From assembly GCA_021789595.1 (NCBI GenBank), contig JAJYJJ010000011.1, positions 1 to 64,000 of the forward strand: DNA of 64,000 nucleotides. The letters run 5' to 3'. Shown piece after piece: positions 57,865 through 62,000 of the stretch. A program made the position numbers and the translations under genes. The notes under the pieces were generated by a model. It was not told the origin of the DNA and made no database searches. It worked only from the letters and a program-made list of their open reading frames with translations. Source of the stretch: Nitrospirota bacterium. Lineage in GTDB: Bacteria; Nitrospirota; Thermodesulfovibrionia; UBA6902; JAJYJJ01. Position 1 is the stretch's first letter; each line of letters starts with the position of its first letter.

Positions 57865-58102
57865 ATGCAAAAAAAGTTGACCATAACCATAGATGAGGAA
57901 GTTTATGAAGGCCTTCATAAGGCCATAGGCCATCGGCCCCCGCAAGATCAGCAAATTTGTTGAGGAATTAGTTCGTCCGCACGTAGTTCGCCCAAATCTG
58001 GAATTGGCATACTCCAAAATGTCAAAGGACAAAAAGAGAGAAGCAGAAGCCTTGGATTGGGCAGAAACAACTTTTATGGACATAGCGCATGAAAAGAGGT
58101 GA
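57865..58102 (+). pseudogene. Frameshifted antitoxin of a MazEF/PemIK-type module
   Basis: MQKKLTITIDEEVYEGLHKAIGHRP then +1 frame PRKISKFVEELVRPHVVRPNLELAYSKMSKDKKREAEALDWAETTFMDIAHEKR*; break at CCCCC 57937-57941. Confidence 0.75.
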
Positions 58103-58340
58103 GGTCTGGTGGGTTAATTTTGATCCTTCCATCGGCGGAGAAATTAGGAAAAAACGTCCTGCCGTGATCGTTAGCAATAACGCATCAAATAAGTTCCTCA
58201 ATCGAGTTCAAGTTGTTCCTCTTGAAAATTTTAAATTGAAAATTTGCATTTGCTCCGAAAATAACCTTTTTTGTCATTGCGGCTTGTCCGCAATCCTTCT
58301 GGAAAAGAAAGATTCCCGACAAGCGGGAATGACATCTTGA
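58089..58340 (+). pseudogene. Truncated MazF/PemK-like toxin
   Basis: MKRGEVWWVNFDPSIGGEIRKKRPAVIVSNNASNKFLNRVQVVPL, then unrelated sequence from a palindromic repeat. Confidence 0.8.
58273..58333. repeat. About 60-bp palindromic repeat (MITE-like)
   Basis: GTCATTGCGGCTTGTCCGCAATC ... GATTCCCGACAAGCGGGAATGAC. Confidence 0.65.
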
Positions 58341-58497: not shown

Positions 58498-58527
58498 TTG
58501 ACTATACATTCTCCCCTTCACTATAAT
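58498..58527 (+). promoter_or_regulatory. Sigma-70-type promoter for the cassette ATPase gene
   Basis: TTGACT - 18 nt - TATAAT. Confidence 0.55.
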
Positions 58528-58588
58528 TCATCATATTATTGAAGTAACATAAAATATAATGTTATGTGCAAGGATGGAGGCCCGCCAT

Positions 58589-59980
58589 ATGAAGAAGTTT
58601 GACCTCAATATCGAAAAAATACTTGAAGACTGGGAGATGCATCATGCGATTAGAGAAATAATCGCAAATGCGATAGACGAGCAGCTTTTGACGAAAACGA
58701 ATGATGTAGTAATTGCCAAAAATGGCAATTCCTGGGTCATTCGTGATTTTGGTCGCGGGCTCAAGTATTCACACCTTACACAAAATGAAAATCAAGAGAA
58801 ACTTTCTAGCACAAATGTAATTGGAAAGTTCGGTATTGGACTGAAAGATGCTCTAGCGACTTTTGACAGAAGAGGAGCGATAGTATCTGCAAAATCACAA
58901 TATGGCCGAATAACCATTGAGAAGTCGCCAAAAGAGGGCTTCCAAGACATCAGTACATTGCATGCAATAATCGAAGATCCGATTGACGCCGACTTTGTGG
59001 GTACAGAGTTTGCGTTAAATGGCGTAACAGATAATGAGGTTGAAGCGGCAAAAAAACTTTTTCTCAAATTCTCTGACGAAGAGGTAATCGAAACCACAAG
59101 ACAAGGACAAGTTGTCAAACGAAATGGAAATCATGGGAATATTTATATAAACGGCGTAAAAGTATCAGAAGAAGAGAATTTTTTGTTCAGCTACAATATC
59201 ACGAGGTTGAGCACCTCAATAAAAAAGGCTCTTAATAGAGAGCGGTCGAATGTTGGACGTGGTGCCTACACGGATTCTGTCAAAAAAATATTGCTCAATT
59301 CAAAAGAAAAAGAAGTTGCAGAAATACTTGCGAAAGATTTAACGAATATCAACAGAGGAACCGCGCATGATGAGTTGACGTGGATTGATGTTCAAGAACA
59401 CTCAGTTAAGATTTTGAATCAAAATGGAAAATATCTTTTTATCACTTCCCTTGAAGCGATGCAGCATCCTGACATGATCGACCATGCGAGAAGTAGCGGT
59501 CATGAGATTATTACCATACCTGAGAATTTGAAAGATAAAATTCAAGGGGCAAGAGATTTATCTGGAAACCCTATCATCGACATTGGTCAATTTGTTGAAA
59601 ATTATAACGATAGTTTTGAGTTCAATTTTGTTGACCCAGACAAATTGAACAACAAAGAAAAGGCTGTTTATCAATTCACACCAAAGATACTTGGTTTATT
59701 TGGCCAAGTACCAAAGAAAGTAAAGGAAATTAGAATATCCTCTACGATGAGGAAAGATTTTTTTGATGAAGCAGAGACGCTTGGCTGTTGGGATCAGAAA
59801 ACGAGTTCAATTGTCTTAGCTCGCAAAACATTAAAGTCACTCTCTGACTACTCTGGTACACTGATTCATGAGTTAATACACGCCAAGACCGGACATGATG
59901 ATGTCTCAAGAGCATTTGAGAACTCTTTGACGGAAAAGATCGGCGATCTTTGCAGTCAAGTTCTTGAAAGATCGGGATGA
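58589..59980 (+). CDS. GHKL ATPase (HSP90-like) with C-terminal HExxH metallopeptidase domain
   Basis: EIIANAIDE, DFGRGL, IGKFGIGLKDAL, GTEF (Bergerat fold); C-terminal TLIHELIHAKTGHDDVSRAFENSLTEKIGD; ATG 58589 with GGAGG upstream. Confidence 0.8.
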   Translation: MKKFDLNIEKILEDWEMHHAIREIIANAIDEQLLTKTNDVVIAKNGNSWVIRDFGRGLKYSHLTQNENQEKLSSTNVIGKFGIGLKDALATFDRRGAIVSAKSQYGRITIEKSPKEGFQDISTLHAIIEDPIDADFVGTEFALNGVTDNEVEAAKKLFLKFSDEEVIETTRQGQVVKRNGNHGNIYINGVKVSEEENFLFSYNITRLSTSIKKALNRERSNVGRGAYTDSVKKILLNSKEKEVAEILAKDLTNINRGTAHDELTWIDVQEHSVKILNQNGKYLFITSLEAMQHPDMIDHARSSGHEIITIPENLKDKIQGARDLSGNPIIDIGQFVENYNDSFEFNFVDPDKLNNKEKAVYQFTPKILGLFGQVPKKVKEIRISSTMRKDFFDEAETLGCWDQKTSSIVLARKTLKSLSDYSGTLIHELIHAKTGHDDVSRAFENSLTEKIGDLCSQVLERSG

Positions 59981-60007
59981 TCAAACAACCACCGTAATAA
60001 TACCGGC

Positions 60008-60078
60008 ACATAACAAGGCGCTGCACCGGACGGCTTTTCCGCTGCGCTTCGCGGCGCAGGTGAAGCCAACCGTTAGGC
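60008..60078 (+). other. attC-like integron recombination site 1
   Basis: ACATAACAAGGCGCTGCACCGGACGG...GGTGAAGCCAACCGTTAGGC with imperfect palindrome and GTTAGGC core. Confidence 0.8.
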
Positions 60079-60112
60079 TGATTGATGATTTCATGAAATA
60101 TGCTACAATTAT

Positions 60113-60343
60113 ATGGATTTCAAAGTAGTCGGAGAAATAAGGGAAATTGAAACTATTGCTATTGGACATGGAATTAAGAATTTGAATCGGTTGAACAAGC
60201 TGTATGGCAAAACAAATTGGAGGAAATTAAAGGGAAAATGCCGTGTAAGATTGGCAGATGGTGCAATCCTTGATGCTGAAGTGCATTGGTATGAAGGACA
60301 TGGCGTAGGCAAGAAAGAAATGAAAATTAAGAAGTATTTATAG
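60113..60343 (+). CDS. Cassette-borne small uncharacterised protein (76 aa)
   Basis: ORF between two attC-like sites. Confidence 0.6.
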   Translation: MDFKVVGEIREIETIAIGHGIKNLNRLNKLYGKTNWRKLKGKCRVRLADGAILDAEVHWYEGHGVGKKEMKIKKYL

Positions 60344-60353
60344 GAGAAAGATT

Positions 60354-60575
60354 ATGAAAAGACATTTTATGGTTTGTGTAAATAATCTTGGGTATGAAGC
60401 CTCGTTGGAGGTTAGAAAGATATATGAGGTTTTGACAGATCGAGCGGCAGAGAAACATCATCAGATACGAGTGATAGATGATTCTGGTGAAGATTATTTA
60501 TACCCTGTAGATTATTTTGCCCCTGTGCGGCTTCCTACCGAAACAAAAGAAAAATTAGAATTGATAGCAGCCTAA
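60354..60575 (+). CDS. Cassette-borne small uncharacterised protein (73 aa)
   Basis: MKRHFMVCVNNLGYEASLEVRKIYEVLTD...; stop codon lies in the next attC. Confidence 0.65.
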   Translation: MKRHFMVCVNNLGYEASLEVRKIYEVLTDRAAEKHHQIRVIDDSGEDYLYPVDYFAPVRLPTETKEKLELIAA

Positions 60576-60628
60576 CAAATCACTACACGGGACGGGCTAT
60601 TGCCCGCCCGTGATTTCAGGCGTTGGGC
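60570..60628 (+). other. attC-like site 2 (59 bp)
   Basis: GCCTAACAAATCACTACACGGGACGGGCTATTGCCCGCCCGTGATTTCAGGCGTTGGGC; RYYYAAC and GTTRRRY ends. Confidence 0.88.
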
Positions 60629-60669
60629 TGCCAGATTATTATCTCATCTGATCTGAAAATTGGAGGCTT

Positions 60670-61347
60670 ATGATTGCACCGAAACATATAGGTCTGATTA
60701 TGGATGGCAACGGACGTTGGGCTCAACAGCGGGGGCTATCCAGAAGCGCAGGTCATAAAGCCGGATTTGAGCACATTCCTCCTGTATTAGAAATTTGCCA
60801 TGATCTTGGTATTCAAATCGTCTCGGCATATGCATGGTCTACAGAAAACTGGAATCGCCCTAAAGCGGAGGTAGGCTATATCATGAGTTCTCTGGAAAAA
60901 CATTTGCCTGAGTTTGTAAGCAAATTACATCAAAGAGGCGTCCGTTTTATGCATAGTGGTCGGCGTGATGAGCTCACACCAGAGGCATTACAAGCCCTTG
61001 ATGAAGCAGCCACCTTGACCCAACAAAATGGGCCTGAAATTTTCAATTTTGTTTTCAATTATGGAGGACGGGCTGAATTGGTAAATGTAACTCGCAAATT
61101 ATTAGCAGAAAAAGTTGAGTCGGAAGTAGTTTCTGAGTCTACAATCAATCATTATTTATGGACAAATGGCTTACCTGATGTCGACTTGGTTATTCGTACC
61201 AGTGGTGAGCAACGTCTAAGTAATTTTTTGTTATGGCAAAGTGCCTATGCTTGTATTTATGTCACCCAGGCATATTGGCCCGATGTAAGTCGAGATGATG
61301 TTGAAGCAGCTGTCAAATACTATAATCGGGTAATGGCAAAGATATAA
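60670..61347 (+). CDS. Cassette-borne isoprenyl transferase (UppS-like)
   Basis: HIGLIMDGNGRWAQQRGLSRSAGHKAG, AYAWSTENWNRP, VIRTSGEQRLSNFLLWQSAYACIYVTQAYWPD. Confidence 0.9.
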   Translation: MIAPKHIGLIMDGNGRWAQQRGLSRSAGHKAGFEHIPPVLEICHDLGIQIVSAYAWSTENWNRPKAEVGYIMSSLEKHLPEFVSKLHQRGVRFMHSGRRDELTPEALQALDEAATLTQQNGPEIFNFVFNYGGRAELVNVTRKLLAEKVESEVVSESTINHYLWTNGLPDVDLVIRTSGEQRLSNFLLWQSAYACIYVTQAYWPDVSRDDVEAAVKYYNRVMAKI

Positions 61348-61379
61348 GTCCAAGTGAAACGCTCCTTCTCCAGCGAGCA

Positions 61380-61503
61380 GCCCAACACAGCGTGCACCGG
61401 ACGGGGCTAACGCCCCACGATTCAGAGCGCGTTTTGCAAAATTTCGTGCAGTAATATCAGGAGTCTTGCCAATCCGCCCCGCCGGTAACGCAAACCGTTC
61501 GGC
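61380..61503 (+). other. attC-like site 3 (124 bp)
   Basis: GCCCAACACAGCGTGCACCGGACGGGGC...GCCCCGCCGGTAACGCAAACCGTTCGGC. Confidence 0.75.
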
Positions 61504-61505
61504 GT

Positions 61506-62000
61506 ATGCATGCGTATGACTCTCCAGAGGGCCGGGCGAATGTGGCAGCCATCGAGTCAAAACTCAAAGAGCTTGACGAGGTGTTCCTGCGGTTCTGCTC
61601 TCGTGAGAACTATACATTCCGCCCAATGGTGGATCTTTGGCCTCGGCGTCGAGTGTGGCGTCGACAGGAGATTGATCGGTGCATGGACCTCACAATGGTC
61701 ATTGGAGTCGTTGGAGTCCAAGATGTCCTGGATCGCGGCTTCTATCCGGAGTTACCGTGGTCGCTTTACGCCAGCGGATCACTTCCACCGGGGACAGATC
61801 CAGATATCCGCATCTTATCACGCCCGGTTTTCGGCTCAGTGCCGTTCTCTCGCTTGGCATCGGTTCTCGCCAATAGCATAGATCGCGGATTGGAAATCTT
61901 GAATGCTATGACCGAAACTGAAATTCTCAGGCACGGAAAGAAATATGGGCGAGGCGCCGAACCCGGCGCTGCACCGAATGCGGCTCCGCCGCATCTGTGA
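61506..62000 (+). CDS. Cassette-borne uncharacterised protein (164 aa)
   Basis: Visibly GC-richer ORF starting just after attC 3 and ending inside attC 4. Confidence 0.6.
   Translation: MHAYDSPEGRANVAAIESKLKELDEVFLRFCSRENYTFRPMVDLWPRRRVWRRQEIDRCMDLTMVIGVVGVQDVLDRGFYPELPWSLYASGSLPPGTDPDIRILSRPVFGSVPFSRLASVLANSIDRGLEILNAMTETEILRHGKKYGRGAEPGAAPNAAPPHL

Follow-up and report, generated by a model that had tools for sequence, protein, structure and literature searches.

The nearest described idea to the protein reported here is that of the phage RIIA proteins, counter-defence proteins in which a GHKL domain is joined to a C-terminus that varies (PMC7824862). With RIIA, for which a conflict role has been proposed (PMC7824862), it shares a GHKL/Hsp90-like N-terminal module followed by a different C-terminal module, but it is cellular, borne on plasmids and cassettes, and its C-terminus is a conserved HExxH domain. 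Among the PHROGs no RIIA-named family matched, the strongest matches being the unnamed PHROGs 6077 and 8203; the resemblance is structural. Hsp90/HtpG chaperones also have a Bergerat ATPase with catalytic Glu and Asn of the RELIxNAxD type and then a middle (M) domain; here, however, the N and M parts comprise only about 345 aa, the family is sparse and mobile, and a metallopeptidase-like domain stands in for the C-terminal dimerisation domain. A genuine Hsp90 was therefore rejected, also for want of a Pfam HSP90 match. Small HExxH domains are found in minigluzincins (abylysin, selecase) and WLM/SprT proteases (Wss1, SPRTN), the best neighbours of the C-terminal half, yet without an attached Hsp90-like ATPase. 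Wss1 and Spartan have been grouped with the minigluzincins, Wss1 being a minigluzincin-like protease that is activated by DNA (PMC4559962). Bacterial MORC/MutL-like GHKL conflict proteins and MzaB have a GHKL ATPase in a defence context but lack a metallopeptidase; the match to MzaB had an E-value of 0.1, and the MORC fold matched less well than Hsp90. In AAA+ proteases (FtsH, Lon, ClpXP) an ATPase and a protease cooperate as well, in FtsH within one chain with HExxH, but their ATPase is an unfoldase ring and not a Bergerat-fold clamp. The fusion is thus ordinary by its parts, while the combination is new to us among GHKL/Hsp90-like conflict ATPases. None of the curated defence models of PADLOC-DB 2.0 matched it, the Pfam, NCBIfam and PHROG names gave partial matches only and none for the whole protein, and it was undescribed in the openly available papers (PMC) on GHKL with metallopeptidase or SprT domains, Hsp90 in defence and phage defence in integrons. 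The sequence-only reading, which had recognised no characterised system with this architecture, is borne out on this point by these searches.

The gene lies in the window analysed, 64,000 nucleotides of a Nitrospirota contig (JAJYJJ010000011.1), and is present in one copy in the host genome (Table 1). The start codon at 58589 is preceded by GGAGG at a distance of 7 nt, and homologs likewise start with MKKFDLN; an alternative in-frame ATG at 58559 is unlikely because it straddles the cassette boundary. The fusion of an ATPase and a metallopeptidase in one protein of 463 aa, as proposed from the letters of the DNA, is real and conserved: of 88 full-length homologs, all kept the core ATPase motifs and 87 the HExxH motif. 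In comparison to the closest relative, dN was about 0.10 and dS about 1.1, and purifying selection acts on both halves. Chance motifs are ruled out by this conservation together with the dN/dS of about 0.1.

Table 1. Features of the fusion gene and the cassette array (positions in the window)
Feature	Position	Strand	Basis
Candidate Pc promoter, sigma-70-like TTGACT-N18-TATAAT, in attI-like leader	58498..58527	+	11/12 consensus; position relative to 58561
attI-like junction (tentative), CATAAAATATAA before crossover	58545..58561	+	12-nt identity with the C4 intI site
Integron gene cassette 1	58561..60072	+	GTTATGTGC / GCACATAAC, 9-nt exact reverse complements
CDS, Hsp90-like ATPase-minigluzincin fusion, 463 aa	58589..59980	+	ORF, Pfam, alignment, AlphaFold, dN/dS
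N-terminal Bergerat/GHKL ATPase domain, residues about 1-145; catalytic E23, N27, D53xGxG57, G79-K86	58589..59023	+	
Hsp90-M-like transducer and alpha/beta domain, residues about 150-345; LNRERSNVGR motif 215-224	59036..59623	+	
C-terminal minigluzincin-like metallopeptidase domain, residues about 355-463; H427-E-L-I-H431, D438, E444	59651..59977	+	
attC1, R'' GCACATAAC ... R' GTTAGGC	60006..60078	+	complement test
Cassette 2: ORFs 60113-60343 (76 aa) and 60354-60575 (73 aa), no family match; attC2 60568-60628	60072..60622	+	
Cassette 3: UppS-like prenyltransferase 60670-61347; R'' GCAGCCCAAC at 61377, R' GTTCGGC at 61497	60622..61497	+	R' by eye
Probable cassette 4: 164-aa ORF 61506-62000, no family match; R'' GCCGAAC at 61956	61497..61962	+	by eye

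The N-terminal half has intact N, G1 and G2 motifs of the GHKL/Bergerat fold: REIIANAIDE (22-31), DFGRG (53-57) and GKFGIGLKD (79-87). Nine core residues (E23, N27, D30, D53, G55, G57, G79, G84, K86) were invariant in the 88 homologs, and Pfam HATPase_c_3 matched residues 16-127 above its gathering cut-off (E=1.1e-6). The AlphaFold model had a mean pLDDT of 88.7. Its best fold matches in the PDB were full Hsp90 chains over the N and M domains (8fx4, E=4e-10), followed by weaker ones to gyrase/topo IV B (7.5e-5), MORC (1.5e-4) and topo VI-B (5.6e-4). Profile comparison with HtpG by hhalign matched the N domain with 93% probability; the in-register segment of the HtpG M domain scored too low to count, so that this method supports the N domain alone. 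A profile of the C-terminal 202 residues, compared with all PDB sequences, ranked the Hsp90-beta M domain first, if weakly (E=0.14). The LNRERSNVGR motif, mostly invariant among the homologs, may by its resemblance correspond to the catalytic Arg loop of the Hsp90 M domain.

In the C-terminal half, H427, E428 and H431 of the HELIH motif (427-431) were kept in 87 of 88 full-length homologs, as were D438 and E444, the latter located on the helix after HExxH. Minigluzincins draw their third metal ligand from a Glu on that helix, so E444 is a candidate for this role, with D438 equally conserved. Similarity to described peptidases was low. The Pfam SprT-like match (residues 399-434, E=0.0035) reached 17.6 bits against a gathering cut-off of 25.6, Wss1 came second with the 202-residue profile (E=0.33, weak), and Foldseek ranked proabylysin and selecase first and second with the weak probabilities of 0.69 and 0.54 (best E=0.19). 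The third metal ligand of Wss1 is a His. The aligned column 437 is variable across the fusion homologs, which have the invariant D438 and E444 in place of a WLM-type His ligand; a genuine SprT/WLM protease was rejected on this ground and on the Pfam score. Separate lines of fold and sequence evidence, each weak, thus point to the same arrangement, with an Hsp90-like N+M module first and a minigluzincin-like domain after it. The GHKL ATPase and the HELIH zinc peptidase-like domain of the sequence-only reading thus both persist in refined form, the first as more than a bare GHKL domain. Two plasmids carry altered forms. A homolog in Halorussus (L013, 7986-9428) has lost HExxH, D438 and E444 together and has kept the ATPase motifs, therefore proteolysis is not always needed; it presents a natural comparison for a protease-independent function. 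On plasmid pF217-3 of Citrobacter braakii (L010, 6001-6348) a remnant of 115 aa, the protease end alone, is located between IS elements with 61% identity over 83 aa.

The fusion gene is cassette 1 in an array of four attC cassettes, the fourth being probable by eye. Arrays were searched for end complements of 8 nt or longer, a test with a null rate of about 1% that replaced an earlier scan for strict attC cores (null 11%). The 5' core GTTATGTGC at 58561 is the exact 9-nt reverse complement of GCACATAAC at 60006, a pairing of ends that a circularised cassette must show; GCACATAAC is followed by the R' site GTTAGGC at 60072; thus attC1 extends from 60006 to 60078. Cassettes 2 and 3 pass the same test with 9-10 nt, whereas for cassette 4 a complete attC was not found automatically. 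The attC3 site has a length of about 127 bp, with R' assigned by eye. Cassette 3 encodes an UppS-like undecaprenyl diphosphate synthase (Pfam Prenyltransf, E=3e-71; core complement of 10 nt), an unusual cargo. Just 5' of the array, an N-terminal fragment of a MazF-like toxin (57866-58340, 83 aa, E=1.5e-5) lies beside a seemingly broken partner frame. No integrase is located beside the array; the only clear integron integrase of the host genome is on another contig (C4:162436-163368, L116; TIGR02249, 427 bits, over cut-off). It is situated close to where the contig ends, next to an attI-like site; the remnant of a first cassette and then transposase-like sequence come after, and its array was probably cut by the contig break. 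Directly before the crossover, the 12 nt of CATAAAATATAA are common to the C4 attI-like site and the cassette 1 junction at equal distance, a short match on which we tentatively consider the junction attI-like. The sequence-only reading had described a cassette-borne gene with its own promoter. The cassette was confirmed, here and in several relatives. The promoter, matching 11 of 12 consensus positions, is placed 5' of the boundary at 58561 and is therefore not the cassette's own; it is more likely a Pc-type promoter in the attI-like leader.

The family is ancient, horizontally spread and of patchy distribution. Among 85,462 species genomes, 244 relatives were detected in Bacteria and Archaea, of which the best 80 were retained, and the fusion is conserved in at least two dozen bacterial and archaeal phyla. 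Among these best 80 of 244 are, besides others, Pseudomonadota, Bacteroidota, Nitrospinota, Campylobacterota, Chloroflexota, Acidobacteriota and Planctomycetota and, on the archaeal side, Lokiarchaeota, Thorarchaeota, Aenigmatarchaeota, Nanoarchaeota and Nitrosopumilus. Within the phylum of the host, 295 genomes yielded only two matches beyond the host itself, one of them weak, and the nearest relatives, with 73-81% identity in the aligned part, come from different phyla. On the homolog tree, 37 switches of phylum and 6 of domain are required, hence horizontal transfer is rife, though errors in MAG binning may account for some of these switches. Integron cassettes carry relatives in several phyla, five by the automatic test (L017, L020, L022, L054, L075) and two by eye (L014 with one mismatch, L056), and plasmid copies occur in Priestia, Croceicoccus, Salinibacter, Euzebya and haloarchaea. 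The great majority of close homologs come from cells, and the near family was present on a handful of viral contigs only. Distant GHKL-HExxH proteins are encoded by phages (Moorella phage MTATph1, L009, 7962-9302; L101, 9971-11245; L102; L104), two of which keep the D...FE signature and two of which have a differing HEFAH motif.

Neighbouring genes were taken from a simple ORF scan and pooled. The 97 neighbours of family members matched 453 PADLOC families at E<=1e-8, compared with 11 over 53 ordinary proteins of the host genome, a crude measure in which related models inflate the family counts and a single genome serves as control. The gap is large, and the neighbours are strongly enriched for defence genes. 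In Salinibacter the fusion is inside a type I restriction-modification (R-M) operon in the order hsdM-hsdS-[fusion]-hsdR; in Halorussus it is near hsd genes, in Natrinema near pAgo (Piwi) and SIR2. Other neighbours are a DrmD/BrxH-like (DISARM/BREX-like) helicase, a type IIG R-M enzyme, TmtA (Tiamat), PDC-S37, a type III methylase, an LmuB-like SMC protein, an AriA/OLD-like (OLD/PARIS-like) ATPase, AAA_13 and OLD-TOPRIM proteins, a Schlafen AlbA_2 protein and PrrC-like ATPases. A run of four genes in Lokiarchaeota (L045, 4175-11395) encodes an SMC-like ATPase, a JetD/TOP6A-Toprim-like protein, a TPR protein and then the fusion; it looks like a Wadjet-like or topo-VI-like module plus protease. 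The contexts of the homologs had been named beforehand as the point on which a defence role could fail. They are largely mobile or defence contexts, and the objection of a housekeeping gene therefore fails.

The conserved fusion is often found among anti-virus genes and is therefore probably a defence protease under ATP control, of a kind not yet characterised. To the full reading, a self-contained ATP-gated metalloprotease of prokaryotic conflict that acts as a one-protein defence, we assign a probability of about 0.47, inferred from anatomy and gene neighbourhood. Two Hsp90-like N+M arms would bind ATP, dimerise and close on a client protein. Closure would present the client to the minigluzincin domain, or open this domain, at the position of the Hsp90 dimerisation domain. 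The client or trigger would probably be an invader protein or nucleoprotein complex, possibly bound to DNA, and its cleavage would either put the invader out of action or bring the infected cell to a halt. Against a defence protease stand the varying neighbourhoods, the many copies that stand alone, the weak fold matches of the protease half and the Halorussus homolog without HExxH.

The recurrence of one neighbour suggests another function. SbcD/Mre11-like genes occur near 12 family members, in 10 of these at most four genes away, and in Aenigmatarchaeota, Nanoarchaeota, Nitrosopumilus and Novosphingobium SbcD and an SbcC/Rad50-like protein are encoded in operon order with the fusion (SbcD-SbcC-[fusion], gaps of -3 to 61 nt). 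Sphingomonads have SbcCD plus a CoiA-like gene beside it, the SbcC proteins of sphingomonads and Nitrosopumilus carry the zinc-hook CxxC, and the association is found in separate parts of the tree (6 changes). An Hsp90/topo-VIB-like clamp might thus load at protein-blocked DNA, where the Wss1/SPRTN-like domain would degrade the block and let SbcCD or restriction nucleases work, whether during repair or as a defence against invader DNA that is capped with protein. Cutting by SbcCD close to protein blocks has been described (PMC6265447), and the protease half resembles Wss1, if weakly. But most members, cassette 1 included, have no adjoining SbcCD, column 437, aligned with the third metal ligand of Wss1, varies, and a DNA-binding domain was not found in the protein. 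An obligate partner gene was rejected, as no partner is common to all members, with SbcCD the sole recurrent one. We regard a protease of DNA-protein complexes as unlikely, though the main rival, and the two readings would overlap should the conflict protease have a DNA-bound invader protein as its client.

Two further readings fit the distribution less well. In a chaperone-protease for stress or quality control, an HtpG-like arm would pass misfolded proteins to the attached peptidase. The Hsp90-like fold would suit this, as would the host genome, in which the HSP90/HtpG family gave no match (it is present in 9 of 61 genomes sampled from the phylum); but the sparse, horizontal and mobile spread and the defence-rich neighbourhoods are unlike those of a proteostasis gene and a heat-shock operon context was not seen, which makes this role improbable. 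Still more improbable is a counter-defence or selfish-element protein in RIIA style, captured by cassettes and plasmids, as the described RIIA architecture, the distant phage relatives with HExxH...D...FE (Moorella phage, L101) and viral fold matches mainly to phage GHKL proteins and RIIA are outweighed by the scarcity of close viral homologs and by the fusion inside an R-M operon, which better suits a host-side role.

To our knowledge, ATP-dependent proteolysis in prokaryotes is the work of AAA+ machines. Coupling of an Hsp90-type clamp to a protease in one chain would, if true, be a different way to control proteolysis. That the fusion is both the first ATP-dependent protease to run on an Hsp90/Bergerat clamp in place of an AAA+ ring and a one-gene immune effector that Bacteria and Archaea share and exchange on integron cassettes is a tentative proposal, with a chance of about one in three, and it is less likely than not that the fusion starts a separate mechanistic class. 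As an immune effector it would represent a compact single-gene system, portable on cassettes and spread over Asgard archaea, DPANN and numerous bacterial phyla. Judging by the branch linked to SbcCD, Mre11-Rad50 nucleases may be tied to SPRTN/Wss1-like proteolysis in prokaryotes.
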